A stretch of 64,000 nt of DNA from Tricholomella constricta (lineage: Eukaryota > Basidiomycota > Agaricomycetes > Agaricales > Lyophyllaceae). Both the position numbers and the translations under genes were made by a program. Below are positions 12,031 to 47,064 of the stretch, piece after piece (positions within the stretch are counted from its first letter, which is position 1; each line of letters starts with the position of its first letter). The notes below the pieces were generated by a model. It was not told where the DNA came from. It did not search any database and saw nothing but the letters and a program-made list of their open reading frames with translations. The stretch is from positions 1 to 64,000 of the forward strand of contig JAACJP010000073.1 of assembly GCA_013368375.1 (NCBI GenBank), written 5' to 3'.

Positions 12031-12043
12031 TTTACACTATTCT
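12031..12043 (-). other. Self-priming primer binding site of D
   Basis: Two bases inside the 5' LTR, the minus strand reads AGAATAGTGTAAA. This is the exact complement of 13 nt in the LTR (sense TTTACACTATTCT, 12174 down to 12162), 32 bp downstream of a TATATA box. No tRNA-type TGG start is present. The arrangement matches Tf1-like self-priming. Confidence 0.7.
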
Positions 12044-12045
12044 GC

Positions 12046-12549: not shown

Positions 12550-12554
12550 AAACT

Positions 12555-14196: not shown

Positions 14197-14199
14197 TCG

Positions 14200-14796: not shown

Positions 14797-17700
14797 TCAA
14801 TCCCGGGGTTTATCCGTGGTACGATAGCGGCGCAGCCGTCCATCAGTATCCCGGAGGTCTACCTTCGTGGCTTCGGTTGATACACCGTTGACCACAACTG
14901 TATTCGTCGCGAAATCAAGGATAACTCCATGCTTTCGCATAAATGGTGTACCGATAATCATATCATATCGGTCAAAGTTTGCTATATTGACATACAGCAT
15001 TTCTTCAGATCCGTGTGTTTTAACTAATGCATCAGACCCAAAGTTCACTGTCGAGCGACTTCCAATCGTTCCCAATTGCAGCGTTATCGGTGCATCCAAC
15101 GGATACACGCGCAGTCCCGCTACCTGGGAGAATGCCGGGGTTACGCCCGTTGTGGTACTACCCGAGTCCCATAGCGTCCACGCGTCGTGTCCGCCTACAT
15201 TGACATATGTGGCCAAACACTCCTTGTCGTCACGCTTATGCACTGGGCGAGCCTTAGCTACTTTCGATGCGCGAAGATGTACTTTGCGCATCTTTATCTG
15301 GCGAGTTTCGTCCAACGGTAATTCCGTTATCGCCCTCAGGACTTCAGTCTCGCTGTCTCGGGAGTAGTAGTCATTATCATAGACTTCGACCTCAATGAGT
15401 TCATCGCTGTCGCTGTCTACCAACGACTCAGGTGGATTATCCGCTTCATTAGCAGAGGTATGTCCACTCTCGTCATCAGCCTCATTCTCCTGATCCATGT
15501 CCGAATCATCGTCCTCTTCATCAACTGCGGTCCGAGCTGCTCGTATCTGAGCACGCACGGGGTACGGTTTCTGTTTACATTCTCTCGAGTAATGACCTTT
15601 CTTTCCGCATTTGTAGCAGATGACATCTGCCGCTGGTAACGGATTCGGTGTCGGAGATGAATGCAGTTGGGGGCGTTCCAACTGTCTATTGGGTGGCGCA
15701 CCCGAGTTCGGGTCAGGGCGTGCTTGCACTCCCACCTTTCCTCCTCGTCCACGCAGTGGCGTAGCCACCACTCTCGCGTGTAGTCCTCCTGCTAAGGCGG
15801 ACTTGCGAATGAAAGTGGTACCGATTCGCCCACCTCCGCGGGGCCTCGAAGATGTTACTTCGGGATTCCGGCGCGAACGACGGCGTGAGTTTCGAGCAAG
15901 GTAGTGCGCAGCTGTCTTAGAGGCAGACTCATACGCCTTCGCCTCGGAGACAAACTCATCGACTGTATTTATCTCAGGTGACAATCCACCTTCCTTAATT
16001 AGGGCGACGAGCATATCTTTGGGTATACCTTCCAGGAAGGTATCACGCACGGTGTATTTGTCTGGGAACACAGCCATATTTTGTGCGTGGTCCATGAGCT
16101 CGTCATAAAACCCTTGAACTCCGATGCTCTCATTATAAGTAGCATCGTAGAAGTCCTCTCGTGCATCCTGCATTGTTGACGGCTGTACAAAGCGATCATA
16201 CAATCCAAGAATGACGTCTTCAAACGTCCAATGGCGTTGACGACGGTTTACATGAACGACGTGGCGCTGGTACCATGTCTTAGCTTCTCCTCTGAGAAAC
16301 TCTGGTACAACGAGCACGCGTTCACGGTCGCGTTCATCGCCACCATACTGGCATGCGGCTAAATGAACGCACACGTCCGTTAGCCACCTTTCAAGGTCGC
16401 TAAACTTGGTTCCTCCAGCGTATGGAGTTATAGTTTTGGACGCGTCAGATCGCCTCAATTTACTACCCTCGGAAAGTTGCAAGCGTGTACCGAGTTGTTC
16501 TTCTAGCAGCGCTTTCAAGTGTACATGCATAGAATCTCGGTGTTGTTCCACAGCTTCAGCGACTCCGGGGTTTCGGGAAGTTGACCGCACTTGCGGAGGC
16601 ATCGAGAACCCACGCCCAGGGGTTTCACTTGGTCTACCTGGGTTTCGTGATATAGGGTTCACGACGCTCATTCCCCTACCGCGTCCACGAGCATTGGTAA
16701 AATGCGTACGAACTACGGGAGTCTCATGAGGAGGTCGATCTCTAGCAAATGTTTGCTGTTGATCACGTCCCTGCAGGTGCTCATCGTAGGGGGCACTCTG
16801 CACATTATTATCCTGTTCGTGAGGTTGTCCAATCGACTCGAAATAAATGCTCTTCATTTGGTCGACGGGCTGACGTCCGATAAAGATCACTCCCTGGTCA
16901 TCGTAAACTGAATGACCCTGTTGCTGCAAGTCTCGATCCCGCTCGCGTTGGAGGGCGACTCTGTCTGCCCACGAGTCTGCCATTGGGTATCGACGGGATG
17001 CATTCCCAGGGACTTGTATCACAGGCGGTGATGTCTCAGTCGTGAACCGTAGTGTTTGAGCAGGCGCAGGCCTTTCCTCAATCGGTTTGACGCCGTCGTG
17101 TGTTTCATCCACACGATCCTCGATTTTTACAGGCGTGGTGAGCACAGGGCCGATGCTGTCGGCTGCTTGTGTTGTTCCTACTGTTGCTTGCGGAGCTTTC
17201 GGTGTCGAAGACCTCGATGCTTCCAAGACAGTGGCCATAGAATAGTTATCTATTTCGAAGCGAATGCCTTCGATAACTAGCTTTACGAATTCGATACTGT
17301 TCGTATCAGGCTCCGTGTCCATGATCGCACAGTGTACGTAGGCGGAGCCTAGCGCGTTCTCATTCATCTGAGTACGTCGACTAGCGTCTGGGACCATCGA
17401 CTGGTATTCTGACCAGTAGAGGTGCACCTGACGCTTGAGGAGGGGCGAGAACCTGAAGATGTTCAGGGTCCCGGTGTCCGATTCTGCCGTCGAGCTGACA
17501 GGTGATAACGCCCGTCGTCGAAGGTACGCACTCGTAACCGACTGGTTATCTGTGTTGGCGTGTACCGGGGCTTGTACCGAAGACTGTGGCACAGCAGTGG
17601 GGGCCGGGGAGGCGGCGTACGCGGCGTACGCTTGTTGCAGAGCCAATCGTACGGGGCCATCGTCCGATGCATGTCTAAGACTCGCATCTTCAGCAGTTTC

Positions 17701-17940
17701 GACCCCCAGAGTGCCTAACCTTGCGGCTGGGCGCTCTGTGGCGTGCATTGATAGTAGCTCCAGGCTACTTACCGCTGTTGGTCCCTCTGCTGCTGCTACA
17801 CCTTGCCCAACTTCGTCCAAACGACGTTGAGGCGGCACATAGGCTATAGGAGGTCGCGGTACTGGCGGATCGACGATAGATTGTATCGTTGGTGTGTTTT
17901 CAGCGCTGGTAGCGCTCGGTGGCACTCGCTTTGGATCCAT
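14797..17940 (-). CDS. gag-pro: Element E Gag-protease fusion
   Basis: A 1047-residue ORF with ATG at 17940, 114 nt inside the 5' LTR. A long disordered N-terminal third is followed by the retrotransposon Gag domain (about residues 490-700; LRGEAKTWYQRHV, FYDATYNESIGVQGFYDEL), a basic RG-rich stretch, a CCHC knuckle near 770 (CYKCGKKGHYSREC), an acidic D/E-rich linker, and a retropepsin near 925 (LWDSGSTTTG; flap and MIIGTPFMRKHG-type C-terminal motif). This is unusually large for Gypsy Gag. It ends at a TGA followed by C, with the frame open beyond. Confidence 0.9.
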   Translation of the reverse strand: MDPKRVPPSATSAENTPTIQSIVDPPVPRPPIAYVPPQRRLDEVGQGVAAAEGPTAVSSLELLSMHATERPAARLGTLGVETAEDASLRHASDDGPVRLALQQAYAAYAASPAPTAVPQSSVQAPVHANTDNQSVTSAYLRRRALSPVSSTAESDTGTLNIFRFSPLLKRQVHLYWSEYQSMVPDASRRTQMNENALGSAYVHCAIMDTEPDTNSIEFVKLVIEGIRFEIDNYSMATVLEASRSSTPKAPQATVGTTQAADSIGPVLTTPVKIEDRVDETHDGVKPIEERPAPAQTLRFTTETSPPVIQVPGNASRRYPMADSWADRVALQRERDRDLQQQGHSVYDDQGVIFIGRQPVDQMKSIYFESIGQPHEQDNNVQSAPYDEHLQGRDQQQTFARDRPPHETPVVRTHFTNARGRGRGMSVVNPISRNPGRPSETPGRGFSMPPQVRSTSRNPGVAEAVEQHRDSMHVHLKALLEEQLGTRLQLSEGSKLRRSDASKTITPYAGGTKFSDLERWLTDVCVHLAACQYGGDERDRERVLVVPEFLRGEAKTWYQRHVVHVNRRQRHWTFEDVILGLYDRFVQPSTMQDAREDFYDATYNESIGVQGFYDELMDHAQNMAVFPDKYTVRDTFLEGIPKDMLVALIKEGGLSPEINTVDEFVSEAKAYESASKTAAHYLARNSRRRSRRNPEVTSSRPRGGGRIGTTFIRKSALAGGLHARVVATPLRGRGGKVGVQARPDPNSGAPPNRQLERPQLHSSPTPNPLPAADVICYKCGKKGHYSRECKQKPYPVRAQIRAARTAVDEEDDDSDMDQENEADDESGHTSANEADNPPESLVDSDSDELIEVEVYDNDYYSRDSETEVLRAITELPLDETRQIKMRKVHLRASKVAKARPVHKRDDKECLATYVNVGGHDAWTLWDSGSTTTGVTPAFSQVAGLRVYPLDAPITLQLGTIGSRSTVNFGSDALVKTHGSEEMLYVNIANFDRYDMIIGTPFMRKHGVILDFATNTVVVNGVSTEATKVDLRDTDGRLRRYRTTDKPRD

Positions 17941-18054
17941 CGCAGATAGATCTTCGTTTCAGGGTTGTGGTGATGGTGATGGCGCTGATAAGCGAGTCGA
18001 CGTCGAAGATAGAGAGCAGTTAAGCAGATAGCAAAGCTGGGTAGCTTAAAAAAG

Positions 18055-18288
18055 TGTAACGGTTGTACGGGGTTGGGGGATCCTTGCGAGACACCAGACA
18101 CGTTAAGCTAGACCAATCTGTGGGATTCTGCTAAGTACGTGTACAGGGTGAAGGTGCAAAGGATTATCTAAGCATAAACTGTACAGGACATTTATATACG
18201 CATAACAAAGATGGTCGTGCATTACCAGAAGGTAATGCCAAACAGGTCGCGTCTCAATATAGACGTATTGTAACGCGCCGTTGTTACA
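18055..18288 (-). repeat. LTR of E (5' LTR)
   Basis: The 234-bp partner of 1356-1589, differing at one base (TTG here against TCG). The 114 nt between it and gag hold the leader. No TGG-type primer site is obvious: the adjacent minus-strand sequence is CTTTTTTAAGCTACCC. Confidence 0.95.
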
Positions 18289-18477
18289 GCTGTGCGGGTT
18301 CCTCCCTCTTTGGCCTGGTGTGAGGCGCACGGACCGGTAAGTGTCGTCTTTCATTTGCGATCGGGCTAGATCTTTCAGCTGATTCTTCTTTTTTGGGGTC
18401 TTTTGCTAGTGTGATCGATGTCGGGAACGTCGGTAGCCTTGTCGTTTCCAGGAGGTTCGTCTCCGCGGGACCCTGCC
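18289..18477 (+). pseudogene. Antisense accessory gene of F, end of exon 1, intron 1, start of exon 2
   Basis: This resumes F after E. Exon 1 ends at 18336 (GGACCG/GTAAGT). A 115-nt intron runs to 18451 (TTTCCAG), and exon 2 begins GAG GTT CGT CTC CGC, exactly as in copies A and B. Homology stops at about 18477, where F is truncated. The splice sites are conserved although the copy is dead. Confidence 0.8.
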
Positions 18478-18715
18478 CAAAGAACCGGAAGCCAATTCCA
18501 AAGGCACGCAGGAAATGAATTGATACTTTGCTTACATGTTGGAGCTTTCTCATTACAATGGCATTATATTTTGGACAAATTACAGATGACAATGTTTCAA
18601 CAAAAAAGGGAGTCCGGATGTACAGTATAAGTGTTGGATGTACAGTATCCATGGTATCTACATTTGACCAAAAAAGGTTTGTGCCCTGCTCAAGCCTTGG
18701 AATCCGGCTTTTCCA
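18478..18715. other. Unassigned sequence between F and the next gene
   Basis: AT-richer DNA with no convincing ORF. It includes a short direct repeat of ATGTACAGTAT-like sequence near 18618-18650. It probably holds the 3' untranslated region of the minus-strand gene that ends at 18716. Confidence 0.4.
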
Positions 18716-21142
18716 TCAGTTGAGGAGTGGTGCTCCGTGTCCGATGCATGGGCTGTCCTTCACTGTCCAAGAGGGGGGAGCTGCTGACGGGCTCCGGCTC
18801 CGGCTTCGGCTTCGGCTCTGGGTTCGCTCCAGTGGGGGTGCAAGCAGTAAGGTAGGAGCCGCTTGCACTGGCTCGGGAGTTGGGGGGACAACGTTCACCG
18901 CAATGGGCGCAGCGGGGGACCTTCCATTGGATGATGATGGCGAGGACCCATACGTCCAAATTGCCTCAATGGGGGGGGGTGAGGCAACTCGGGTCCGGGA
19001 TCCGTATGTCCGGACTGCAACCGGGCGTGAAGCAACCATTGGAGTCGCACTGCCTGCCATTGTGGCACCTGCTGTTGACAGGTCAACGTCGACGCTGGCA
19101 GGCATCGCAGCCAGTCCACTGTCATCCATGGCAGGGGGGCCCTGGGGTGCGGTCTCGACTCCAGCCGCTGGTTCTGCCATGGGGGCGGGCTGAGGACCGG
19201 AGGACTCTTCAACCGGCATCGCTTCGACAGAAACATCCATCTCACACTCCACCTGCATCATTTCTGACTCCAGCTGGGCAGGCTGGGATGAGGGAGCAGG
19301 TGCAGCAGATTTCGTGGCGGCGGGGTCGGGACCGGATTTGGGCCCGGGTCCGGGTGATGGGGCAGCCTCAGTGCTTAGGGGGGAGAGGTGTGGTCGGGGA
19401 CTTCCACCTGCAAGTGATGAAGCCAATGGCAGTTCCGCCTGCTCCCAACGGATTGCAGCTTGTGCTGCAGATTCCTCCATGGCTGACACATCCATGTCCC
19501 AGTCATGTTCTGCAACGTGGGCCTGGAGGAATTCCTCCCGTTCCCGCTCCCGCCTGTCCAATTTTTGGTGCACCTCCTCTACGGTGAGGCATCCCTCGCT
19601 ACGGAGCCAGGCATGAAAGTGCTCCCAGTGCGCCCCGTCCCGTTGCTCCCCAGCAATGCGGCAGTCATCCAACTCCCACCGGAACTTCTTCTGCACCTCG
19701 AACATCATCCGAATGTCCTGCACCCGCTTGCTATGCTGGATTTCCAGCTGCTCCACCCGTCGGCTCAGTTCCTCCAGTGTGGGGGACGTTGACGGTCCCG
19801 ATTCTGCGAGGGCTTCAACCCGGCGTGCTAGGTCCACCAGCCGTGCAGCATCGGAGGGAGCGGTGGGCTTCCCGGATCCGGATGGTGGTGGGCGGATAAC
19901 CCGAGGGCCTCCGGACGGACCCGCTGCTACTTTGAAGGTTAGTTTTCAAACAGAAACGAAAAAGAGTCAGACTTTACCTGCTGACTCTGGTACAGCGGCC
20001 ACTGTCCTCTCCTTCCTCCTTGGTGGACCCATGGCACGCAACCGGATGGAGTGCTCACAGGCGCATTTCTGCACCTGGCACCCAATGCAAACATATCCGG
20101 ATCGCGGCCGGACGCACCGGATGTTCTTCACGGTGCATCGCCGGCATTGGGTCCGGTACTCCTGCCCAGGGAGTGTTTCCCGGACCTCAATTTCGTGGTC
20201 CTGTGGAAACGGGTCCACTGTGGGCTCCGCCGAAGGTCCTTCGTCGGCTGCCAGTTCCGTAAAGGTCTTGGACTTCTTGGTGGCACAAGGCTGGGCCCGA
20301 TCTGTAGGTGCTTTCCGTTTCCGGTCGGGTCCGGGAACGGCGGCGGAGGAGGGGAGGCAAGTTGTGCCCCAAATGCTGGGCTGAGCGTCGGGCTGCGCTC
20401 ACGATCTGGTGGCAACGGGGTGCCCACGCGGGTCATGCGGCTTGTGCGGGTCATCTGAGCCTTTCTTTGGACGCCCCCTGCGGTCATCAGGTGAAGGGGG
20501 GGGGACTGGTGATCACGCTTCCGACGCGGTTCCTTCTTTATTTTTCGGTCCCCCGGATCCGGTATTGTAACGGCATTTGTTGTCTGCTTCCACCTTGGCT
20601 GAGGTTTGGGGCGGGCAGGCACAGGGGTTCCTGTGGGAATGGGGGACGGGGCAGGTCGGGAAAAGGGGGCAGGCGTGGGTGCAGGTGCGGGGGATGGGGC
20701 GGGTCCGGGAAGGGGCAGCGAGGCCGGTACGGGTTGCGGAACCGGACTCGTCGGCTGAGGCACCGGGGCAGCTATTGGGAGGCGAGGGGAAGTGGTGTTC
20801 AAAGCTGGTGGTGGTGCTGCCAGCCCCCCCAAGCGTACTGAAAGCTCAGTAATCACCTGGTCCAAAGTAACCTCCCCAGCAGTGAGTAATTTTAATATTG
20901 GGAGTGCCCGCGCAATCTGCGACTGCTTCCGGGCCTGTATGATTTTGGCCGGTGCTCCCTGAAACCTTGGCCACAAGTCTCTCTTGAAAATCACGTTGAT
21001 CAGCTTATTACACCTGAGGAACTTGAGAACTAACCGCTCTGTCAAAAAGGCTGGTGAGCCCGAGTGCATTGCGGTATCGGACACACTCCCGGAGCTCTGC
21101 GTCGATGATGTTCAGTGCAGTGATCAGACGTTGGGAATCCAT
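18716..21142 (-). CDS. Cysteine-motif, AT-hook-like, coiled-coil protein (multi-exon, possibly broken)
   Basis: Best reading: ATG at 21142 (MDSQRLITALNIIDAELREC), a 55-nt intron (GTGTAA to TTTCAG), then a proline-rich region. Next come an AT-hook-like segment (RRGRPKKGS), a cysteine cluster (CRRCTVKNIRC then CIGCQVQKCAC) and a 51-nt intron at 19977-19927 (GTAAAG...TAG). The last exon holds a coiled coil (LARRVEALAES, then LEELSRRVEQLE) and an acidic/proline-rich tail to 18716. Two problems: the frame changes at a run of nine G (20496-20504), and the frame carrying the cysteine cluster has a TGA at 20401-20399, possibly a former CGA. It is either a pseudogene or has an intron I did not resolve. 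The function is unknown; nuclear DNA binding is an inference. Confidence 0.55.
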
Positions 21143-26770: not shown

Positions 26771-27131
26771 TGTTAGGACCTGTGTAGCACGCCGGTTACA
26801 GAGTTATTCTGGAACCACCGAAGCGGACAGGCCTGACGTTTGTCAAGGAAGACGGCCTTCGAAGGGATGTTCAAAGGTCGTGAGCATTGACGAGAGTGTT
26901 CACCGGGGCTTGTTTCGAACGAATAAAGCACAAGTGATACGATTTGTAGAGCCGAGTAAACTGAGAGAGTAAAAGAGAACAAGAAACGAGAACGGGAACT
27001 AGTCGTAACAATTGAGTAATATCGAGGTGAAGAGTCCGAAAAGAAAGTGGTGCCATATATATACAGTAGACGTGCGTGGGAAAGCGTAGTGGGTGTGAGT
27101 TTAGGGGGGGTCGTTAGGGCCGGTCGTGACA
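26771..27131 (-). repeat. LTR of A (3' LTR)
   Basis: A 361-bp LTR, TG...CA, followed by TTACCCCCTCC (the reverse complement of the polypurine tract). On the minus strand it has TATATATA and the ACCTCGATATTA block downstream. Confidence 0.95.
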
Positions 27132-27226
27132 TTACCCCCTCCTCAAGCGTCGAGCCACTGAGACGCGGAAAAAGGTTCGAATACGGGGAGTGTGGCGGTT
27201 GTTTTCTTTTTTGGGTCGTACGCAGT

Positions 27227-27353: not shown

Positions 27354-29348
27354 ATGTCGTCGTTCAAACAAAATCCCGCGTCCTCCGCTTCTGTTGCCCA
27401 AGTTTCGCGCGATCGGGAGTTGGCACGTTTGTCTGTCGAAGATCGAGCGCGTGTGGCGTTTCTGGACGTTCCCCGACCTGTTTCCCCGGCGCCCTCTCTG
27501 CCTGGAATCGCCACACTTATCGATGGGAGTGTCGGGATGGTCCCCGAGTCCTCCCCTGTTCCTCCCCCACGTCCTGATCCCCGTCTCACCATTCGTCTTC
27601 CTATCCGATCTCGACAGATCCGGCGCCCCCGTTCTACCACTCCTGAGGCCGAGTTCGAAATGGCTAGTGATCCTGTATCGTGTCCGGCGGCCACCTCCTT
27701 ATCCTTGGGGCCTTTGTTGACGGATGCAATTTTAGCGGAAGTGTTGCGTACTGCTGTGCGGGCTCCTCCTTCCTTGGCGTGGTGTGAGGCGCATGCGCCG
27801 GTAAGCGTCGCCCTTCTTCTTGTGATCGAGCCCAACATTTCAGCTGATTCCGTTTCGTGGTCTTCGTTAGTGTGATCGTTGTCGGGAGCGTCGGCTGTTT
27901 TGTCGGTTTCAGGAGGTTCGTCTTCGCGGGACCTTGCCCTGTGTCGATTGCCGTGCGGCGCACTCCTTGTGTTTGCTTTCGTTAGACCATGCCCTAGAAG
28001 TGGCGGCTAGGCAGTTGGGCATCCCTTTGGCCTGGCTCCAATCTCGTGCCGAAGGGTTCTCTTTCACTCGTACTGGTGTTGCAATGTCCTTCACCAGTAT
28101 CCGTCGCGCCTTGCGTTTGCCGCTCCCGCCTCCTCTTCCCGCCGTCTCTTCGTCCGTTGAAGGGTTTGGCTCCGTTCCCGTTCCTCGTGCTTCTCCCCCC
28201 CGTGCCATTTTTCGCGGTAGGCGAGGACAGGGTCGGAGGTCTGTGCCTGTCGGTCGTGGAGGTGCGCACCTGTCCGTTCAGGAGGTGCGCCCTTTGTCCC
28301 TGCCTCAATCTCCTTTGCCCTCCCCCGATGTGTCCGTTTCTCCTGTTCCGGTTCATCGTCTGGAGGCTGCCAGGCGTGCGGTGTCTCCGGATTCCCCTTT
28401 AGCTGGTCCAGAGCCTCTCTTTTTAAAGAGTTCGTCTGAATCGGTCTCTCCCTCACCGGTTCTGCACCAGGCTTCCCCTCCTGCTATGTTGATTTTGTCC
28501 CCCCCCCGCTGCTCCTGCTCTTCTTGCTCCTTCGCCTGAGGAGCACCTTTGTCTTCGGCGCCTCTATGACCAGGAGGTCGCGCGTGCGCAGGCTTTGTCC
28601 ATCCAGGTAGAGCGTCTCCAGGCCGAGGGCGAACACAACAAAGGTCGTTTTCGCGGAGTCCTAGCCGAACTCGCCGACGAGCATGAACGTTTCCTTCATC
28701 TGCAGGCGCAGACATCGAGTGCCGTGGAGGTCGTCGACGTCGATCGTGACGCCGAGGTCGAGGATCTGCGGATGGAGGTTGCGGGTCTTGAGGATGATGC
28801 GGGTCTGAAGGGGCACATCGTCCATCTCCAGGAGGTTCGGGACTATTGGCGTGGTCATGCCTTGGACCTTCGCACTCGCACCGATGGTGAGTCTTTCCTT
28901 TGTTTTCTTTCGTTCTCTTTTTTCACCTCCGGAATTTGTTGTAGCCCTTGACCTTGCGCGTGTTGCCTTCGCATCAGATATGTATGTTGCGGATGGCGCT
29001 CTGCGTCGCGCCCTCGTCGAGATGGAGGCGTCGCCGATCCGGGATATCGTCGACGCCGCTCACAAGATTCTTGAGCAGCATTCTCTTCGCGAGCTTTTTC
29101 GCCCTCCCATCGATCCCGAGTCCCCTTTTCCTGCCTTCGAGCATTTCCTTGCTCTTCATCGTCCATCTCTCACTTGTGAAGACGCTCTTGCTGAGTTCGT
29201 GTCCCAGTCTCAATTGATCGCCGATGACGAGCAGGACATCGCGTCGATGTGTCCTCTGGAGGTAGGGTTGGTTGGGGAGGTGGGGGATGGGCGTGAGGAC
29301 AGTTCCTCTGCCAGTGCAGGTCCCTCCAAGCGTCGTCGCATCGAGTAG
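27354..29348 (+). pseudogene. Antisense accessory gene of A (three exons, one frameshift)
   Basis: Exons 27354-27800, 27913-28886 and 28945-29348 match copy B in intron position, phase and nearly in length (112 and 58 nt). Exon 2 opens EVRLRGTLPCVDCRAAHSLC. It continues with a proline-rich region, then a coiled coil (VERLQAEGEHNKGRFRG); exon 3 ends SASAGPSKRRRIE. A run of nine C (28499-28507) has one base too many compared with copy B and shifts the frame, so this copy is probably inactive. Most differences from B are conservative in protein terms, consistent with past selection. Confidence 0.75.
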
Positions 29349-29898: not shown

Positions 29899-30257
29899 TG
29901 TTAGGACTCTGTGTAGCACGCCGGTTACAGAAGTGTTCTGGAACCACCGAAGCGGACAGGCCTGACGTTCGTTGAGGAAGACGGCCTTCGAATAGGATAT
30001 CCGGAGGTCGTGAGCGTCGACGAAGGCGTTCACGAGAGCGTTTACGAGAACGTGTGAAGCTCAAGAGATACGAGTGAAAGAAACAGAATAGATTGAGAGT
30101 GGAAAAGAAACCGAGAACAGAGACTAGTCGTAACAATAAGCAATATCGAGGTAAGGTGTCAAAGAAGAAAGTGGTGTCATATATGTACCGCGGACGTGCG
30201 TGGGAAAGCGTAGAAGGTGGGAGTTTTAGGGGTGGTCGATTAGGGACGGTCGTGACA
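29899..30257 (-). repeat. LTR of B (3' LTR)
   Basis: 359 bp, identical on reading to 39783-40141. It is followed by the polypurine tract complement TTACCCCCTCC (30258-30268). Confidence 0.96.
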
Positions 30258-30268
30258 TTACCCCCTCC
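30258..30268 (-). other. Polypurine tract of B
   Basis: GGAGGGGGTAA on the minus strand, directly next to the 3' LTR. The same tract occurs in A (27132) and F (731). Confidence 0.85.
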
Positions 30269-30357
30269 TCAAGCGTCGAGCCACTGAGACGCGGGGCAGC
30301 TTTTCGAATGCAAGGAGAGTAAAGTTTTTTGTGTTTTTGTTCTCGCGTGTGCGCGGT

Positions 30358-30374
30358 CACGTGAGGGGCACGTG
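30358..30374. promoter_or_regulatory. Twin CACGTG boxes upstream of the antisense gene (copy B)
   Basis: CACGTG at 30358 and 30369 (11-bp spacing, one helical turn), about 105-120 bp upstream of the ATG at 30479. Candidate upstream activating site for the antisense gene. Confidence 0.5.
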
Positions 30375-30478
30375 CGGTCTAGATTGTTTGTGGGTCCTTG
30401 TGGGTGTTTTGAGGATCTCGGAGACCGAATAGAGAAAATTCCAGTTGTTTTTTCCTCTTCCAATCCTCACTTCTCTTC

Positions 30479-32513
30479 ATGTCGAGGTCCCACCAAGATT
30501 CCGCGTCCTCTGCCTCCGCTGCCCGAATTTTACACGATGAGGAATTGGCGCGCTTGTCCGCTGAAGATCGAGCGCGCGTCGCGTTCTTGGGCGTGCCCCA
30601 ACCTGCTTCTCCCACTTCCTCTCTACCTGAGATCGTCACTCTTATCGATGGGGGCGTTTCGACGATCCCTGACTCTTCCCCTGCTCCCTCTACGCCCCCC
30701 GTCCCTCGTCTCACCATCCGTCTTCCTAACCGATCTCGACAAATCCGGCGTCCTCGTTCCGTCACTCCTGAGGCCGAGTTTGAACTGGCTAGTGATCCTG
30801 TATCGCGTCCGGCGGCCACCTCCTTATCCTGGGGGTCGTTGTTGACGGATGCGATTTTGGCGGAGGTGTTGCGTACCGCTGTGCGGGTTCCTCCCTCCTT
30901 GGCATGGTGTGAGGCGCATGCGCCGGTAAGTGTCGCCCTCCTTCTGTGATCGAGTCGATCGCTTTAGCTGATTCCGTTTTGGGTTCTTCGTTAGTGCGAT
31001 CGTTGTCGGGGGCGTCAGCAGCCTTGTCAATTTCAGGAGGTCCGTCTTCGCGGGACCCTGCCTTGTGTTGATTGTCGTGCGGCGCACTCCTTGTGCTCGC
31101 TTTCGCTCGATCATGGCCTAGAAGTGGCGGCTAGGCAGTTGGGCATCCCCTTGGCGTGGCTTCAATCCCGTGTCGAAGGGTTCACTTTTTCTCGTACTGG
31201 TGTCGCGATGTCCTTCGTCGCCATCCGTCGTGTCTTGCGTGTGGCGCCGCCTTCTTTTCAAAACTCCCTTGTCTCCGTGCCCTCTGCGGAGGTCCTTTCC
31301 CTGACTTCGTCTTCTGGTGATGAGGCCGCCATGAGCGTTAGCCGTGTTTCGCCTCCACGCGCCATTTTTCGAGGTACCCAAGGGCAGGGTCGAAAATTAG
31401 TGTCTGTTAGTCGTGGGGGTGGGCGATCTGGTCTGCAGGGGCTGGGGAGGCGGCCTTCGTCCGTGTCTCGTTCCCCTTCCCTTTCTCCCACGGCGCCGAC
31501 TTCTCCTCTTTTGGCCCCTCCTTTGTCGGGCGCTACGCGCGCGGTGTCCCCCGATACTCCCCCTGTCGAGCCTCTCTTTTTAAAGGGCTCGTCTGTTTCG
31601 AATTCTCCAATGCCAGCTCTTCCAGCTCTACAGTCTTGTCCTCCCTCCATGTTGTTGTCGTCCCCCCTCGCTACCCCTGCTCCTTCTGTTCCTTCACCGG
31701 AGGCGTTCCTCCGTCTCCAGCGTCTCTACGACCAGGAGGTCGCGCGTGCTCAGGCCCTTTCATCCCAGGTTGAGCGTCTCGAGGCCGAGGGTGAACGCCA
31801 CAAAGGTCGTTTTCACGGAGTCCTATCCCAACTCGCCGACGAGCGTGAACGTCTTCTTCATCTGCAGGCGCAGACATCGCGTGCCGTGGAGGTCGTCGAT
31901 GTCGATCGTGACATTGAGGTCGAGGATCTGCGGATGCAGGTTGCGGGTTTTGAGGATGAGGTCGCTGGTTTACAGGGGCACGTTGTCCATTTGCAGGAGG
32001 TCCGGGACTTTTGGCGTGGTCATGCTTTGGACCTTCGCCTTCGCGTCGATGGTGAGTTCTCTTCCATTCCCTTTGTTTTCTCTTTCCCTCTTTCTGAAAA
32101 CTGTCCTAGCCCTTGACCTCACGCATACCGCCTTCGCGTCCGACATGTTCATCGCGGATGGTGCTCTGCGTCGCGCCCTCGTCGAGCTGGATGTGTCGCC
32201 AGTTCGAAGTATCATCGATGGCGCCCACAAGATTCTGGAGCGGCACTCGCTCCTTGAGCTTTTCCGTCCTCCTGTCGATCCCGAGGTTCCTTTCCCTGCG
32301 TTTGAGCACCTCCTTGCTCTTCACCGCGCCTCACTCACTCGTGAAGACGCTCTTGCCGAGTTCGTATCCCGGTCGCAGTTGATTGCCGATGACGAGCGGG
32401 ATATCGCATTGATGCGTCCTCTGGAGGTAGGGTTGATTGGGGAGGTGGGGGTTGTGGGCGGGGAGGGTTCTTCTGCTAGTGCAGGTCCCTCTAAGCGTCG
32501 GCGCATTGAGTAG
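30479..32513 (+). CDS. Intact antisense accessory gene of retrotransposon B, 621 aa, three exons
   Basis: Exons 30479-30925, 31037-32051 and 32110-32513; introns of 111 nt (GTAAGT...TTTCAG) and 58 nt (GTGAGT...CTAG). The phases join to one frame ending at TAG 32513. The protein has a short helical N-terminus (EELARLSAEDRARVAF) and a P/S/T-rich stretch. A cysteine motif (CVDCRAAHSLC, C-x2-C-x6-C) starts exon 2, then a helical segment, long disorder and a coiled coil (EVARAQALSSQVERLEAEGE to about LQEVRDFWRGHALDLR). Exon 3 is helical and ends in a basic, NLS-like SKRRRIE. It faces pol tail to tail. Introns can persist because the gene is antisense to the genomic RNA. Function unknown; a nuclear regulator is an inference. 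Confidence 0.75.
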
Positions 32514-32598: not shown

Positions 32599-32631
<33 letters not shown>

Positions 32632-32728: not shown

Positions 32729-35700
32729 TTAAATCGTGGGGTCCCGTGGCTTTCTTGGGAAAAGTCGGTGGAACTCGAGGGCCATGTCTTTTGCTCCTTC
32801 TATATTCTCTGCTGGTTCCCATGTGTCGTCTTCGGGGCCGTACCCTTCCCATCGTACCAAGTAAAAGACGCGCCTCCCTCGTGTCCTGGAGTCTAGGATT
32901 TGTCCTACTTCATAGTGCTCTTCGCCCTCGACTTCGATCGTCTGCGGAGGTGGCTTTGACCTTCCTGGGAAGTTCTCGTGTTTGTGTTCTTCGAGTAATT
33001 TGACGTGGAAAACATTGTGAATTCCCTTCAATGCCGGAGGTAGTTCCAGACGGTACGCGTGGCTGGAGATCTTCTGTAGGATTTTGAAGGGGCCCAGTCT
33101 CCGGTGGTCCAGCTTTTTGGAGGGGCGTTTCGTTTTGATATTCCGGCAGTCAAGCCATACCTCCGTTCCTACGGCCCAGTCTGGTGTAGGGTCCCGTTTC
33201 TTGTCCGCAAATCGTTTGTAGGCTTCGTTTGCGATCTCTATCTCTTGGCGGAGGTAGTCCTGGAGGGTCCGGAGGTCGACGGCTACCTCCTGGGCTTCCC
33301 TTGCCGGTATGTCTTTTATAGAGATTGTCAGGCGGGGGTGATAGCCTTTGTTCGCAAAGAAAGGAGAGACTCCCGTGGTTGAATGGGTCGTATTGTTATA
33401 CGTGAATTCCGCCAGTGGGAGCTGTGTTCGCCAGTTGGTCTGGAGGTAGTTCACGTACATCCGGAGGTACTGTTCCAGTGTCTGATTTACTCGTTCCGTC
33501 TGGCCGTCGGTCTCCGGGTGATACGCGGTCGAAAGGTTCGATTTGATGTCCAGGGCTTTGCACAGCGAGCTCCAAAAACGGGAGACGAAGAGAGTGCCTC
33601 TGTCGGAGATGATGTCATCGGGTAATCCGTGCTTGGAGAAGACGTGTTCTAGGAACAGTTGTGCGAGCTCCTTCGCTGTGTCCGTTGTGTGACAGGGTAT
33701 GAAGATGCCTTGTTTTGTGAGGCGGCATACTACGACCAAGATGGCGTCGTACCCATCCGATTCCGGTAATTCCACGATGTGGTCCATAGATATGGAGGCC
33801 CACGCCCGTCGTCCGATCTGAAGCGGTTTCAGCAATCCATATGGGCTGTGGCGCGGGACCTTCGCTCTTTTGCAAGTGTGGCAACTTCGGACGTATCGGG
33901 TGACCTCCTTCCGTAATCCGGGCCAGAAATAAGTCCTCATGATGAGTTGTGTGGTCTTTCTGATTCCTGGATGTCCACGTAGTTTGTGATCGTGATGTTG
34001 CTGCAGGATGTCGAGGCGTAACCTGGAATGGTTCGGTACGTAGATTCTTCCGTCGCGAAGGAGTAGCTTGTGGTCGTCGGATAGTGAGAACGCGGAGGAC
34101 TCGTCTCCAGGTTTGGGTGCGTATTTCTCGAAGAAGTCATCTCGGGGTGCATTACGAACGTTGTTCAACAGGAGTTGTTCGTTTAGAATTAGGGATGCGT
34201 TCAACCGTTCGGGGGGTATGATGATGCGGTTATTGAACGAATTATGATCCTGTTCGAAACCCTTCTTAGGATATACGTCCGCTCGTCGTGTGAGGGCATC
34301 TGGCTTCGCTCCTAGTCTTCCCGGTCTGTAGTTTATTTGGAAGTCGAAGTTCGCCAGGCATTCCGACCATCGTGCTTGTCTGCGACTGAGTTGCTTGGTC
34401 GTGGAGAAGTACTGTAGGTTGTTGTGGTCGGAGTACACTTGAATGCGGTGGGGGGATCCCTCGAGGTAGGCTCTCCATTGTTTAAACGCTTCAACGATCG
34501 CTAGGAGCTCCTTATCGTAGATGTCATAGTTGAGCTCCGCGTCTATCATGGTTCTCGCATAGAAGGCGACGGGACGTAGGTCTTGCGATGTCTCGTCGAA
34601 TTGGGAGATGATTCCTGCTATGGCAAAGTCGGAAGCATCGCACTCTAGTATCACCGGTAGTTGAGGATCGAAGTGTCGTAGGATGGGTGCGGAGGAGAAT
34701 GCTTTCTTCAATAGCTCGAAAACTCCTTCGCATTCGGAATCCCATTTCCAGATTGTGTCCTTTTGCGTGAGTTTGTTTAGCCTCTTCGTTATGCCCGAGT
34801 AATTGTCGATAAACCGCCGATAGAAGTTTGCAAAACCTAGGAAATATTGGAGTTCCTTGACCTTCGTCGGTCTAGGCCACTTCCGGATCGCGTCGACTTT
34901 TCCTGGATCCATCTTTACTCCGCCAGGGGATACAATGACGCCTAGATACTCGATCTCCGTAGTGTGAAACGTGCATTTCTCCGGTTTCGCATGAAGGTTG
35001 TGTTTCCGGAGCCTCTCGAGGACCTTCCGAACATGTCCGTGATGTTCCTCTAAGGTCTCCGAGAAAACCAGAATGTCGTCGAGATAGATCACTACGAACA
35101 CGTCGTTCATGTCGTGGAAGATGTCGTTCATGAAGTGTTGGAACGTCGCGGGTGAGTTTGTCATGCCGAAGGGCATTACCAGGTATTCGAAAAGTCCATA
35201 ACGAGTGCGGAAGGCTGTCTTCCATTCGTGTCCCGGAGCTATGCGGACGTTGTTGTAGCCCACTCGGAGGTCGATCTTCGAGTATACTTTTGCTTTTTGA
35301 AGTCGGTCTATGAGGTCTCCGATCAGAGGTAGAGGGTAACGGTTCTTCTTGGTGATCCGATTTAATCCTCTATAGTCCACGCATAACCGGAGTGATCCGA
35401 CCTTCTTCTTTGCGAACAGTACCGGAGCTCCCGCTGATGAACTCGAAGGTCGGATGAACCCTTTACCGAGCATCTCGTCGATGTAATCCTTCAATGCTTT
35501 CAACTCCAGTTCGGACATGTCGTATATCTTTCCGAAGGGAGGCGACCTCCGTTTCCGGGTTGGTTTCCTCTTCTTCCTGTGTTTCTGTCGTTGGGGACGT
35601 TGCGGATTTCCGTTTGGGATGAGGTTTGAATTTGGACCTCGGAACGTTTGGAGGGAAGTAGTTCGGTGGGGGTGGTTTTCGGGTGCATTTCCGTCCCGTT

Positions 35701-36908
35701 ACCTCCTCTGGCGACTCGGTTGTCGGTGTTGGTACTTCCTCTTGGGGTTCGTTGGTGTTTGGGCGGGTGTCTTCCTCCTTCTTGATGTCGTTGGAGGTGT
35801 CTTTCTGGTCGTTATCGTTGTCCAGGATGTCCCTGAGGAGGGGTTGTTTTTCCGAAAGGGGGTTGGCTGGTTTCGGAGCTTCGACGTCTTCCTCCTCCTC
35901 AAGGGTCACGGTTCCCCATTGCGTCTTTTGGGAAAGCGATATCGCGGCTAGTCCTGCCCCTTGTTCCATGGTCATGGACATTTCCCGCCAGTCGATGTCC
36001 GGATTTACTTCCCGTAACCAAGGTAATCCAAGCACTACTGGTGTGGCTGGATGTAACTGTGTTATGAGGAGGTCGACCTTATACTCTAGTCCGTTCTCGA
36101 GTTTGATCTTTTCGGGACTATGGTGTGAAATGGCTCCGCCTCCGCTGGGGTTTCCGTCGAACAGTTGTAAGGTCATGGGGTTGGCGAGAGGTTCCGGCTT
36201 CGTACACGAGGATTTTGTTATGAAGTTGCCCGCCGCCCCACTATCAATAAGTGCCCGTAGACGCGTTGCAGATCCCTCCAACTGTACTTCGATCGTGAAG
36301 GAGCGAGCCGACCGCGAGGGTAAGCGTTGAGCTCCTGTACCTGTTGTTGTTGGAGCGACTTCCTTTTTTCTTCGGAGGTCCGGTAGTGATCCTTCGATTT
36401 TGCCGTTTGACCCCCGTCGTAGCATGATGCAGAGGTCTTTCCAATTTATGCGGGGGTTGACCTCCTTCAGCCATGATAGTCCCAGTACTATCGTTGCTGT
36501 CTCGTGGAGTTTCGTTATGAGGAATCTTATCCTCTGAGTGGTGCCGTCGCTGAATTCGACGTCGTTGGTGGTATAGTGTGTGATTTTGCCTGATGCGGAG
36601 AGTTCTCCGTCGAATAGGCAGAGGTTTATTGGGGGGTTGAGCTCCTCAAGGTGGAGCCCACGTGATGTCGCCATGACGGAGTCCATGAAGTTGTCGGTAG
36701 CTCCGCTGTCGATGAGCGTGTTTTCGGGATCTTCTCCTCCTCCGTTTGGCGTGAGGTGTATTAGGAATGCCAGTGACGAATGGGAGGAGAGGGTTACTGT
36801 GCGGGTGTCCGTTGTCGATAATGCCGTTGCGCGTAGTTTAGTGTTAAGGTCCGGTTTTAGGTCTTCGCGATTCAGAGCCCGGGCAAGTCCTGAATCGCCC
36901 CCGCGTTT
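32729..36908 (-). pseudogene. pol: Element B pol, defective (323-bp deletion)
   Basis: It follows the frameshift signal at 36911-36905 in the -1 frame. 36686-35463 encodes the two tandem retropepsins (second: ALIDSGAAGNF); 35518-32729 encodes RT (YLDD), RNase H (ECDASDFAIAGI), zinc domain, integrase and chromodomain. Compared with C, 323 bp of the linker between protease and RT are missing (junction near 35545), which shifts the frame and separates the halves. The RT carries KKKVGSLR, as C does, where A has KKKDGSLR. Otherwise the enzymes look complete. Confidence 0.92.
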
Positions 36909-36911
36909 CCC
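36867..36911 (-). promoter_or_regulatory. -1 ribosomal frameshift signal of B
   Basis: Minus-strand GGGAAAC at 36911-36905, then a 6-nt spacer and the inverted repeat GCGATTCAG / CTGAATCGC (36898-36890 with 36875-36867). Same as in C. Confidence 0.75.
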
Positions 36912-39753
36912 TCTTCTGTCTTGTGATGGAATTCGAAGATGTCGTCGCCGATGAGGTAGGTGGCTCTGCCCATGGCGTTTGCTGTTGGGCAGTCGCGCAT
37001 CCAGTGTTCCAGGTCACCGCATAGGATGCAGGCCTTGTCTCGAATTCGTTGTTGCTTTACGTCTTCGTCGATCTTCACCCAGGGGCGTGTTGACTTCTTG
37101 AACCCGAAGTTGTTGGCTTGTAGGGCCTCCTCGTCGTCCCATGCGATTTCCTGGTCTTGCGCCTTACCTTCCCTACCTGAGTCCGGGTCCTGATCATGAC
37201 TTTCGGCGTTCAAGCGTGCGTTCCTGTTCCCTTGAGCCGTTTGCGGCGTCGTGCGGCTTGCGGGTCCGGCCGAAGGTCCCATCGGAGGTCGTGCGGAGGT
37301 GTTGGGGGCGTTCGCGTTATTCGCCCAGAGGGGTTTGTAGGACTCTGGATTTTCTATGCGATGTTCCCAGTACCTCCGATCGATTTGAGTGACCAGATCT
37401 CGGTAACCTTCGTAGGTTTCGGGGCTTGGTGTGATGGCCAGGACGTTGAGGATTCGCGGGGGGAGCACTTTCCGGAGTGTGAACTGCAGCGCTACCCAGT
37501 TCCAACCTGTTTCGTACGCTTCTTGTTCGAACTTGACGATGAATGCTGTGAACTTTTCCCAGTCCTTCATTTTCAGTCGCGAAATGTTGTTCTCGGCTTC
37601 CACTCTCGAGTTCGGTATTCCGAAGCGTGATCCTAGTTCGTGTACGAATCCTTCCCAATTCGTGAACATTGGGTGTTGGGGGTTGTACGTGAGTTGCAGT
37701 CGAAAGTAGTCCATAGCTCCGTCCTTTAAGTAGGAGCTCGCGAATGACACCTTCAGGTGGTCCTGTTCGTAGGTGATCGCCTTGGCTTGAAACATTACTA
37801 GGCATTCCGTGACGAAGGTCTTCCATCTCCTCGGTTCTTTTCCCGTGAAGTGGTCCGGTTTCCTGATGTCGATCTTCGATTCCAGGTTTAGGAGGTGCCG
37901 ATACTGTTCCGGGGTCAAGTTTTGGTTTGGGCCTAAGAATTGTTGCGGTGGAGGTGGGGGTCGTTGGGGGTTTGCGAAGTGGCCTCCCCCTTGGTTTCCG
38001 GGCGGGCCTCCTCCTCCTCCTCCTCCGTGACCTCCCCCTCCCCATCCTGGGCCTCCTCCTCCCCATCCGGGACCTCCGTGGCCTCCCGGGCCTCCTGGTC
38101 CTTGTGGTGGTCCGTATCCTCCGTGACCTCCCCCTCCTCCAGGACCTCCTGTTCCTCCGGGGCCGTTTCCCCAATAACCTCCTCCTCCCCCTCCTGGTCC
38201 TCCGGGACCGTTTCCCCATTGAGATCCTCTCGGGGTAGGTGGTCCCGAAGATCCCGGAGGTGGTTGGGGCTGTGGAGGTGGTCCGTTGTACTGAGGGATT
38301 GGTCGTCCGCCGGGTATTGGTGGGGCTGGTCCGCGGTTGTAGTCAGTTCTGTATTGTTCGAACTGGGGGAACTGTTGTTGGGTCCCTTGCCTTCCTTCGA
38401 GGATGTTCACATTTTGACCGGGGCTGGGGTCCGCTCCGAGTCCCCGTCGTTCTCTTGGGGAGATGGGGCGTGGGCCTTGCGGTGACCTCCTGTTCTGAGT
38501 CGCCAGGTGAGGTGGTGTTTGGCGCCAGTCTTCTCGTGTCCTTGGGGGTGCTCCTCCTTCTTCCCGGTTTTCTTCGCGTAATTCGTAGCTATGAGTGTAC
38601 GATAACGGCGTTGGGACTCCTTGTTCCGACGGAGGTAGGGGAATATTCTCGGGTTCCCTCTGAGGAGCTCCTTCTTGTCTTGCGGAGGTCTGTTGTAGGC
38701 CTTGAAAACCCGAGTTTGGCCTGGAAAACGGTCCTTCGAAAGAGGGATTCTCTTCGGGGATCCTTTGCAAATTGTGGGCTCCCCAGAACCCGAACGTCGG
38801 AGCTCTTCGAGTGTCCGCCCCCAGCGTGATGGTGGGTTCGAACCTTTCTTGACTAGGAGTTGCGTTTCCTTGGTTCATCCTCCGAAGTAGAGCAGAGGCC
38901 GACTGCGTATTGACGGTGCTCGTCGCTCGTGGAGGTTCCTCGAATCTCATTTCGATTCTGGAGGGAATTGGTTCCTGAATTGGCATGTGGAAAGAACGTC
39001 CCGCGCTTTGGGGGTCGGAGAATCTTCTTTCGTCGTTGGATGTCTGGATTTCCCCAGCCAGAGCGCGCAACCTTCGTTCGTTTCCCCCCATTTGTAGCAA
39101 CACCGTCAGTTGTGGGGGCAGTCGATGGGCTTCGTGCAGTTGTACGGTCGACAACACGAGATTGGCCCATTGTTCAGGTGTCCTGGGTTGGTGGTCCATC
39201 CCCATGGTTTCGACCAGGAGCTCGTGCGCTTGACGTGAAAACTCCTCTCGCGACATGCGGAGCTCGTATAGTATCCGCTCGTGGTCTGAGCCGTGCAGGA
39301 AGGGGTTTTGTTGTCGAGCGAATTGTCCCTGTGCCTCCTCCCGCGCCCTATCCCTCCTTTGGAACATCTCCGGGTTCCTCAGTCTGTCGTAGTACGACCC
39401 GGGAGTCTGGTTACTCGATGGCGGAGGTCCGGAGGTCGTTGTTGATGGTGGTAAGGGGGATAGTTGGGGGTAGCGAGTTGATAGGACGGGTTGAAAACGT
39501 TTGAGGGGGTTCGGGGTAGGGGTCGTCGAGGGTCTTGACTGACAGAGGAAAAGTCCCCCTCATGTTGACCGGGTTGGAAGATCTGTTGTTCCAGCCTGGA
39601 CCTGTTGGGTCCGAAAGTCCCTTGCATCGGAGGTCCTGTTGAGGCAGGGGAAGTTTCGAAAGGTGGTGGTGAAGGTCTCCTTTGAGTGAAGGAAGGACCT
39701 TCGAAGTTTTGATAGCGGATGGTTGTGTTGGGCTCCACTATCGTCGAGGACAT
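36872..39753 (-). pseudogene. gag: Element B gag, one-base frameshift
   Basis: ATG at 39753. The first about 100 residues match C, then a C6 run is C5 (near 39460), which shifts the frame. The remaining Gag is open from 39367 to 36872 and includes the Gly-rich segment, the capsid domain and the CCHC knuckle (CILCGDLEHWMRDC). It would need the missing base to be functional. Confidence 0.9.
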
Positions 39754-39782: not shown

Positions 39783-40141
39783 TGTTAGGACTCTGTGTAG
39801 CACGCCGGTTACAGAAGTGTTCTGGAACCACCGAAGCGGACAGGCCTGACGTTCGTTGAGGAAGACGGCCTTCGAATAGGATATCCGGAGGTCGTGAGCG
39901 TCGACGAAGGCGTTCACGAGAGCGTTTACGAGAACGTGTGAAGCTCAAGAGATACGAGTGAAAGAAACAGAATAGATTGAGAGTGGAAAAGAAACCGAGA
40001 ACAGAGACTAGTCGTAACAATAAGCAATATCGAGGTAAGGTGTCAAAGAAGAAAGTGGTGTCATATATGTACCGCGGACGTGCGTGGGAAAGCGTAGAAG
40101 GTGGGAGTTTTAGGGGTGGTCGATTAGGGACGGTCGTGACA
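39783..40141 (-). repeat. LTR of B (5' LTR)
   Basis: 359 bp, the partner of 29899-30257. It carries the TATA-like box and the primer segment in the minus sense. Confidence 0.96.
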
Positions 40142-46183: not shown

Positions 46184-46544
46184 TGTTAGGACCTGTGTAG
46201 CACGCCGGTTACAGAGTTATTCTGGAACCACCGAAGCGGACAGGCCTGACGTTCGTCAAGGAAGACGGCCTTCGAAGGGATGTTCAGAGGTCGTGAGCGT
46301 TGACGAGAGCGTTCACCGGGGCTTGTTTCGAACGAATAAAGCACAAGTGATACGATTTGTAGAGCCGAGTAAACTGAGAGAGTAAAAGAGAACAAGAAAC
46401 GAGAACGGGAACTAGTCGTAACAATTGAGTAATATCAAGGTGAAGAGTCCGAAAAGAAAGTGGTGCCATATATATACAGTAGACGTGCGTGGGAAAGCGT
46501 AGTGGGTGTGAGTTTAGGGGGGGTCGTTAGGGCCAGTCGTGACA
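46184..46544 (-). repeat. LTR of A (5' LTR)
   Basis: 361 bp, the partner of 26771-27131, with six transitions between them. Confidence 0.95.
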
Positions 46545-47064
46545 CTAAGCAGCCAAAACCGCTGCCAAACAATGCCAAACAATGCTGCCCTCTCGCATTC
46601 CAATGGCTAGAGTGCCGCATAGAGACACTCCAACGGACTGATAGACCACGAAAAACCTTGAGCTGAGGCTGTTTTATGGAATTTTCGACCTTCGTGAGCA
46701 GTCTTTTCTTTGCTGGCTTTATCACATCATCATGAGTCAAGTTATCCTCAGAATCTTCCCACTCCCTCTTTTCCTTCCCTTTCTTCAGTGCCTTCACTGC
46801 TTTTCTCATCTCGGAAGACACATTTGGGCAAGGGTTATGGCCACCCTTTCCCAGTATGTGTGCCATCATCGAGTCTTTGATGCTGAGCACACCACCAACA
46901 TTTGCTTTGCACACTGAAAACTGTGTCAAAATAATGCTCATGACATCAGGTATGTGGTACATGCCTTCAATAACCCAGGACTCTGACACTAGTTTTGGAT
47001 TCCTGTTCTCATCAAGTTCCAAGATATTGTCATCTGGACGGTGGGCCCCAATACATCCATCCAC
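46545..47064 (-). pseudogene. BED/hAT-type transposase-like fragment
   Basis: The minus-strand ORF from 47064 runs into element A. Its middle (MMAHILGKGGHNPCPNVSSE) resembles the second half of a BED zinc finger of hAT transposases and related fungal proteins (helix, H, then C-P). It is followed by a charged linker and a KVFRGL motif, which I recall from such proteins just before the DUF659-like domain. After that the frame loses sense. The upstream cysteines are not visible; an intron donor (GTAAGA) lies near 47100. The coding sequence is cut by A. The assignment rests on motif memory. Confidence 0.4.

Follow-up and report, generated by a model that had tools for sequence, protein, structure and literature searches.

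A spliced antisense gene with a zinc-cluster-like motif as a regular part of a Ty3/Gypsy chromovirus of Tricholomella constricta

The stretch of DNA analysed here (hereafter, the window) comprises 64,000 nucleotides (nt) of the agaric Tricholomella constricta (assembly GCA_013368375.1, contig JAACJP010000073.1, positions 1 to 64,000 of the forward strand). It contains a minus-strand Ty3/Gypsy chromovirus, element B, which is inserted in a related element, A. Between the pol gene and the 3' long terminal repeat (LTR) of element B lies a plus-strand gene of three exons (30479-32513); a first-pass annotation of the window had placed it there and on that strand, and both are confirmed. This gene is a regular part of the element, that is, a standing accessory gene and the fungal counterpart of the antisense open reading frames (ORFs) of plant LTR elements known as aORFs, and it is under purifying selection between subfamilies. 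Judging by its cysteine spacing, the encoded protein would carry a Zn2Cys6-like zinc cluster, with marginal support from Pfam.

The gene model is composed, on the plus strand, of the following parts: (i) exon 1 (30479-30925; 447 nt, 149 codons), whose start and donor are conserved in the copies; (ii) intron 1 (30926-30994; 69 nt, GTAAGT...TTAG); (iii) exon 2 (30995-32051; 1057 nt), which encodes the zinc cluster, a Ser/Pro-rich linker and the long-helix region; (iv) intron 2 (32052-32109; 58 nt, GTGAGT...CTAG); and (v) exon 3 (32110-32513; 404 nt including the stop), which encodes a conserved C-terminal part. Both introns are of the GT-AG type and the spliced product has 635 amino acids (aa).

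The carrier is a Ty3/Gypsy chromovirus, with reverse transcriptase (RT), RNase H and integrase in this order and a C-terminal chromodomain in its pol (32729-35518, minus strand). A single pol ORF holds the Pfam domains RVT_1, RT_RNaseH, Integrase_H2C2, rve (below its cut-off), SH3_Tf2-1 and Chromo. The two LTRs of the element (3', 29899-30257; 5', 39783-40141; both on the minus strand) are 100% identical. On the same strand lie the protease region (35463-36686), whose Pfam aspartyl protease matches are close to the cut-offs, and an 831-aa ORF in the gag position (36872-39367), which has no Pfam match.

The 44 Mb genome of T. constricta contains many copies of the gene: a DNA search returned at least 43 matching pieces and a protein search at least 101. 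Seventy-one loci were examined, of which 66 are distinct once the window copy (L001) and four repeat fetches (L044, L051, L052, L055) are removed. In 62 of these 66 copies the model can be projected over all six exon borders, and GT-AG is found at both introns in all 62. The spliced frame is uninterrupted in 46 of the 66, corresponding to 36 different proteins, which form five clusters at 93% identity. Among these intact copies exon 1 measures 441-453 nt, exon 3 404 nt, and the introns 58-75 and 52-60 nt; exon lengths stay in frame while intron lengths drift.

The place of the gene is constant as well. Among the 64 loci having both gene ends, a chromovirus pol on the opposite strand begins 202-232 nt past the stop in 58, and an LTR lies 217-227 nt ahead of the ATG in 59. 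Five of the six loci without pol have flanks shorter than 200 nt, the sixth (L036) being a truncated copy with pol inside the projected stretch; four of the five without LTR likewise have flanks shorter than 200 nt, and the fifth (L031) lacks an LTR within 360 nt. Both pol and LTR are present in the flanks of L068 and L070. Approached from the other side, a search with pol listed 150 rows (147 of 700 candidates scored); nine pieces were set aside, as were 40 rows from a related family (43-46% identity), and 101 places of the family, 74-100% identical, were used. The antisense gene adjoins pol, in convergent orientation, at all 101 places examined among the matches listed (89 by the coordinates of a gene match and 12 by reading the flanks, some in pieces). 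This is the arrangement of the plant class aORF-3R, i.e., antisense to gag-pol between pol and the 3' LTR, and present in all or most copies examined. The first-pass annotation had pointed to homologues existing only as captured host genes as a contrary outcome; these were looked for and not found, with no element-free relative seen among the 66 distinct loci. In the related chromovirus family at 43-46% pol identity, no gene of the B type was seen at the three loci read (L076-L078). An LTR-like TGTTAG...CTAACA stretch directly follows pol in L076 (by eye), and the best matches to the B-family proteins have E values of 1.9 in L077 and 0.65 in L078, which indicates that the gene is not found in every Gypsy family.

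Selection on the gene was assessed through the ratio of non-synonymous to synonymous substitution rates (dN/dS) by the method of Nei and Gojobori. Between clusters, dN/dS is 0.21 (B and L012), 0.32 (B and L028), 0.26 (L012 and L028) and 0.24-0.31 in the other cluster pairs, the synonymous rate (dS) between subfamilies being 0.43-0.85. In windows of 50 columns (to column 600), values are 0.08-0.22 in and around the zinc cluster and 0.05-0.14 in columns 550-600, within the conserved C-terminal part encoded by exon 3, with peaks in the linker (to 0.63) and the N-terminus (to 0.66). The last 260 residues of pol give 0.02-0.07 between clusters (five loci, three clusters); hence, the antisense gene is constrained, although less than pol. 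Over half of the differences fall at third codon positions in eight of eight pairs (for instance, 86/57/205 at positions 1/2/3), and dN/dS is 0.24-0.50 in six recent pairs with few changes. Two observations weigh against such constraint: the recent pair L015-L023 has a dN/dS of 1.32 (5 synonymous and 18 non-synonymous changes), and the introns do not evolve clearly faster than the exons (intron 1 64-91%, intron 2 55-88% and exons 73-82% identical in eight pairs). A ratio near 1 across copies, which would have spoken against a functional gene, was looked for and not found, apart from the recent pair L015-L023.

The dS between B and L012 is itself uneven: 0.08-0.32 in codon columns 300-500 (about 31445-32033 in the window) and 0.40-1.62 in the other windows. 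Perhaps these are mosaic copies that arose by template switching between subfamilies.

The protein is organized as follows: an N-terminal region, a six-cysteine cluster, the Ser/Pro-rich linker, two predicted long helices, the conserved C-terminal part and a basic end. The cluster, CDRCRGRQQPC-x12-CVDCRAAHSLC (30995-31096, plus strand), is present in all 46 intact copies. Fungal Zn2Cys6 clusters follow the rule C-x2-C-x6-C-x5-12-C-x2-C-x6-8-C, and the spacing in B, C-x2-C-x6-C-x12-C-x2-C-x6-C, falls within this rule (PF00172), as does that of every intact copy. Such a spacing class arose in none of 2,000,000 random placements of the eight cysteines of the B protein. The six cysteines are invariant in the 46 intact copies, with switching between TGT and TGC at five of the six positions, and the pattern is retained in exon 2 of 15 of the 16 copies that can be projected but are broken. 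In addition, an annotated T. constricta protein of this family, P0001, bears the UniRef name of a Zn(2)-C6 fungal-type domain protein. The first-pass annotation had reported a C-x2-C-x6-C motif; it is indeed present, not as the sole motif but as one half of the six-cysteine cluster.

The same annotation had proposed three exons, which stand, and 621 residues, which do not. The shorter product results from an acceptor at 31036 (exon 2 from 31037) and loses 14 residues, CDRCRGRQQPCQFQ, which form the N-terminal half of the zinc cluster. Three points favour the acceptor at 30994: (i) P0001 uses its equivalent; (ii) CTGAT, which is presumably a branch-like site, stands ahead of it in intron 1 of four of the five cluster representatives, with TTGAT in the fifth (L037); and (iii) the 42 nt between the two acceptors vary around invariant cysteine codons that switch between TGT and TGC.

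Several results weigh against the zinc-cluster assignment. The full-length Pfam Zn_clus scores are 8.2 bits for B and 15.5 bits for P0001, against a cut-off of 21; four 70-aa fragments score 16.6-22.2 bits, one of them above 21, with only profile positions 13-35 aligned. None of the 43 Zn_clus matches listed genome-wide falls on a copy of the antisense gene (compared by eye), and a search of the PDB with the cluster profile yielded two weak rows and no zinc-cluster chain. The AlphaFold2 model of P0001 is poor at the cluster (predicted local distance difference test, pLDDT, about 30-40) and, with a mean pLDDT of 41.3, mostly unreliable.

As regards the rest of the protein, AlphaFold2 predicts in P0001 two long, coiled-coil-like helices at residues 372-430 and 440-499 (pLDDT about 55-77), which correspond by alignment by eye to approximately 31700-32051 on the plus strand of the window. 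The C-terminus GPSKRRRIE (32484-32510, plus strand), found as GPSKRRRI[ED] in 41 of the 46 intact copies, is presumably a sequence of the nuclear localization signal (NLS) type. The coiled coil and NLS-like end named in the first-pass annotation are thus borne out as predicted long helices and a basic C-terminus. Taken together, splicing, constant position, purifying selection, predicted helices and basic C-terminus point to an accessory gene rather than a chance ORF, a candidate rejected on its splice sites, frame, codon positions and dN/dS. An env-like ORF on the sense strand was also rejected: sense stop-to-stop ORFs, of up to 251 aa, differ in place and length across the five cluster representatives.

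A second Gypsy lineage has genes of a similar kind. Near the related pol at 45% identity in L076, an intron-like stretch is immediately followed by an exon of another gene, which opens with C-x2-C-x6-C-x8-C-x2-C-x6-C (CDRCRKQGVSC...). Only over the cluster is this exon similar to the B family (best blastp E value against 36 sequences, 0.001; hhalign, local E 0.00018, probability 48, 37 columns, with the global run empty), and its Pfam Zn_clus score is 14.4 bits. With a resemblance confined to the cluster, common descent of both kinds of zinc gene is no more than likely. This exon has 130 match rows in the genome. Beside one copy (L091), the C-terminal part of another Gypsy pol lies on the opposite strand; by blastp it is related to the integrase parts of two pols of the window, that of B (E 5.7e-7) and that of the element at 60702-63938 (E 2.7e-7), and it is identified as integrase through blastp to these window pols alone, with no match in the Pfam scan. 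The same pol, at 91% identity, lies beside a 37% identical zinc exon in L092.

A search with the L091 pol gave 106 rows (141 of 544 candidates scored), of which 16 split or incomplete ones were set aside; the 90 used comprise 78 places of this second lineage and 12 distant pols (37-48%). A convergent zinc exon match lies 230-960 nt downstream of pol in 75 of the 78 lineage places listed, and in 36 of these 75 a second zinc exon match follows at a greater distance in the same orientation. By the same distance measure, no zinc exon match accompanies any of the 12 distant pols. Conversely, 116 of the 130 zinc rows sit in the pol-convergent arrangement. At L093, both an apparent end of the upstream gene and an apparent start codon (ATG) of the downstream gene can be recognized by eye. 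The loci read (L076:1085-2936, L091, L092 and L093) are on contigs C19, C7 and C2; the genes were read in part, and their splicing is deduced from two places. Pol and zinc genes are decoupled in this lineage: its pol places are 78-100% identical to the query and the zinc exon rows 25-100%, and pols at 93% identity (about 92-93% to the query) accompany zinc exons at 67% (C9:1046678 and C9:1047810) or 35% (C78:2138 and C78:3501). This points to rapid co-evolution or to module exchange.

As regards relatives in other species, three protein searches over about 5.8 billion proteins (E <= 10) returned, among the matches listed, just P0001 and P0002, both from T. constricta; such searches need shared 5-residue words, two of the three considered the best 8000 candidates, in one the query had X in place of its N-terminal and Ser/Pro-rich parts, and absence from other species does not follow from them. 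P0002 (D9615_009035) joins a Ty1/copia RT piece to the antisense gene and is probably an annotation fusion. A literature search, with most subscription papers outside its coverage, found no report of a spliced antisense zinc-cluster gene in fungal elements, and two surveys of LTR elements in fungi do not use the word "antisense" in their main texts (PMC3248453, PMC3411680).

The closest known arrangement is that of the plant aORF-3R of maize Grande (gene23), rice RIRE2 and Silene Retand, where an antisense ORF located between pol and the 3' LTR is retained by most or all copies (PMC7264820, PMC11963269). They support the first-pass remark that antisense accessory ORFs occur in plant LTR elements, and the gene of element B is like them in strand, in site and in its presence at all places examined. 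According to the same sources, the product of Grande gene23 is nuclear and the gene has its own upstream promoter, while the TRP28 ORFs of Retand are predicted to bind DNA (PMC7264820, PMC11963269). Unlike these, the gene described here is fungal, belongs to a chromovirus (Retand is a non-chromovirus) and has two introns in all 62 projected copies, and a second Gypsy lineage of the same genome has up to two such genes per element. Its protein is zinc-cluster-like with long helices, its dN/dS has been measured, and no TRP28 domain (PF04195) was listed in the Pfam scans at E <= 10, where the HMMER filters drop most very weak matches.

A second comparison is HBZ of human T-cell leukaemia virus type 1 (HTLV-1), whose transcripts begin in the 3' LTR and are spliced, and whose product inhibits Tax-dependent activation (PMC1459196, PMC10186651). 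Both are spliced antisense genes reading away from the 3' LTR, and the HBZ product is nuclear with a dimerising coil (PMC1459196, PMC10186651). In contrast to HBZ, which starts in the LTR, the gene of element B has its ATG and candidate promoter outside the LTR, and no bZIP family match was listed for its protein in the Pfam scan at E <= 10; no shared ancestry is implied. The likeness to fungal Zn2Cys6 factors (Gal4-type, PF00172) lies in the six-cysteine spacing, a proline before the fourth cysteine, predicted long helices downstream and, in some subfamilies, an Arg-rich first loop (CDRCRTRRLSC); it differs from them in its full-length Pfam score below the cut-off, in a cluster located mid-protein and in being encoded antisense in a retrotransposon. 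Finally, a comparison of working mode only, with no homology claimed, can be made with another class of elements, the VANDALs of Arabidopsis, which are DNA transposons. Their VANC anti-silencing proteins are element-encoded and sequence-specific, with new target spectra between related elements (PMC5735166).

It is proposed, at a likelihood close to even but short of it, that the protein is a nuclear, coiled-coil-dimerising, Zn2Cys6-like DNA-binding factor which recognizes its own element, at the LTR or the leader, and controls its sense transcription. Because introns that lie on the antisense strand stay in the sense genomic RNA, they persist through retrotransposition. Antisense transcription would not depend on the sense promoter and would start either in the 3' LTR or in the 220-nt leader next to it. 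The basic tail would then mediate nuclear import, the coil dimerisation and the zinc cluster binding to DNA at the LTR or leader, and the bound protein may control the sense transcription of its own element. The leader (30258-30478, plus strand), as a candidate promoter, contains conserved blocks: in eight aligned leaders they include a doubled CACGTG (in B, GGTCACGTGAGGGGCACGTG) and GAGGATCTCGGAGA. Inside a conserved LTR block, CCG-N3-CGG occurs in seven of eight LTRs, a count without control comparison; this could be a candidate site for a zinc-cluster dimer and is taken as a lead only.

Activation, anti-silencing and repression are all candidates for the sign of this control, and the analysis leans to a positive role, i.e., an activator or an anti-silencing factor. 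A gene that successful copies retain, and on which purifying selection acts, would be expected to favour their propagation; moreover, in the second lineage the zinc genes diverge much more quickly than pol, which is what co-evolution of protein and target sites in each element family would produce. It counts against this proposal that the direction of control is argued from evolution only. The main rival, which seems rather unlikely, is that the protein represses its own element or controls its copy number, as HBZ does for HTLV-1. The geometry is similar, a spliced antisense gene from the 3' side with a nuclear product damping sense transcription (PMC1459196, PMC10186651), and an antisense drive away from pol permits expression while the sense promoter is off. 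Nevertheless, a pure repressor should vanish from fast-spreading copies, yet the sequence is kept at the 101 pol places and its frame is under purifying selection between subfamilies.

Other roles have less in their favour than DNA-binding control of sense transcription. The protein might act at a post-transcriptional step (RNA export or packaging) or in integration (chromatin targeting of the integration complex) through contacts of its zinc cluster with nucleic acid or protein. A basic C-terminus and a coiled coil do not specify DNA regulation, and the accessory protein of Cer1 in Caenorhabditis elegans is needed for nuclear export of its genomic RNA (PMC10309623). This role is nonetheless unlikely, as the six-cysteine spacing fits the rule of fungal DNA-binding zinc clusters and antisense expression is an odd supply route for a factor needed together with gag and pol. 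It is more improbable still that the antisense RNA, and not the protein, is what matters, pairing with the 3' end of the genomic RNA and feeding RNA interference or blocking reverse transcription. The genome does have Argonaute-type (Piwi-domain) matches (16 rows), and double-stranded RNA from plant antisense aORFs has been discussed (PMC7264820); however, RNA pairing needs neither the selection seen on codons (the 86/57/205 distribution), nor invariant cysteines with synonymous switching, nor kept splice sites. Least probable is a host zinc-cluster gene captured once and carried as a passenger without a role for the element. Zn2Cys6 genes are ordinary in the host, 30 Zn_clus matches in the genome being over the cut-off on their own. 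Against such a passenger stand the lack of an element-free relative among the distinct loci, the gene at every pol place examined, constraint between subfamilies at the dS values given above, and similar genes in the same arrangement in a second lineage.

Within the window, homologues of the gene in elements A, C and F had been predicted, and all three were found. That of A (27354-29348, plus strand; exons 27354-27800, 27871-28886 and 28945-29348) has the exon layout of B, with its frame broken in exon 2. That of C (59145-60455, minus strand) is 5' truncated, without exon 1 and the start of exon 2 (remainder of exon 2, 60455-59607; exon 3, 59548-59145). In F, exon 1 (952-1356, plus strand) is cut at 1356 by an insertion of about 16.9 kb, and the gene continues at 18285-18478 (plus strand) with the last part of exon 1, followed by intron 1 and the beginning of exon 2; no match was found beyond 18478. 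The LTRs of element A (26771-27134 and 46184-46547) are 98% identical; the flanking repeats are CTAAG for A and GCTGG for B, the latter with one extra T on the left.

Other features of the window are the following. The insertion in F (1356-18288) is nested, has 234-nt terminal repeats that are 99.6-100% identical, and itself holds other repeats, e.g., a 504-nt pair at 6158 and 12046. About 100 nt past pol, a T run (an A run on the sense strand of the element) of 14-39 nt lies at about 32600-32631 and at the same place in L003-L008; its length varies between near-identical copies of the B subfamily and is 6-10 nt in A and in five loci of other subfamilies that were measured. A further zinc-cluster-like ORF, CRRCTVKNIRCVRPRSGYVCIGCQVQKCAC, is located at 19969-20398 (minus strand), with Pro-rich frames before it and a coiled-coil-like frame after it; the ORFs beside it, 18716-19837 and 20128-21084, have no Pfam match. 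Lastly, a tandem array at 48700-50430, whose unit measures 129 nt (listed as 12 overlapping copies of 300 nt), sits in a 718-aa minus-strand ORF (48397-50553) and is unrelated to the antisense gene.

Beyond element B, a broader reading is advanced tentatively, the balance of probability being somewhat against it: at least two lineages of fungal Ty3/Gypsy elements would each have one or two zinc-cluster regulators per element, spliced and antisense, which pass down with the element yet diverge or are exchanged at a much higher rate than pol. As control modules specific to their own element, acting as anti-silencers or as immunity-like repressors, they may determine the element families that are active in a given genome. 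Plants have for years been known to have antisense ORFs at this site, between pol and the 3' LTR, without a known function. A spliced, constrained, zinc-cluster-like version in a fungus makes the role of antisense aORFs testable in a mushroom, where the element itself also supplies candidate target DNA.

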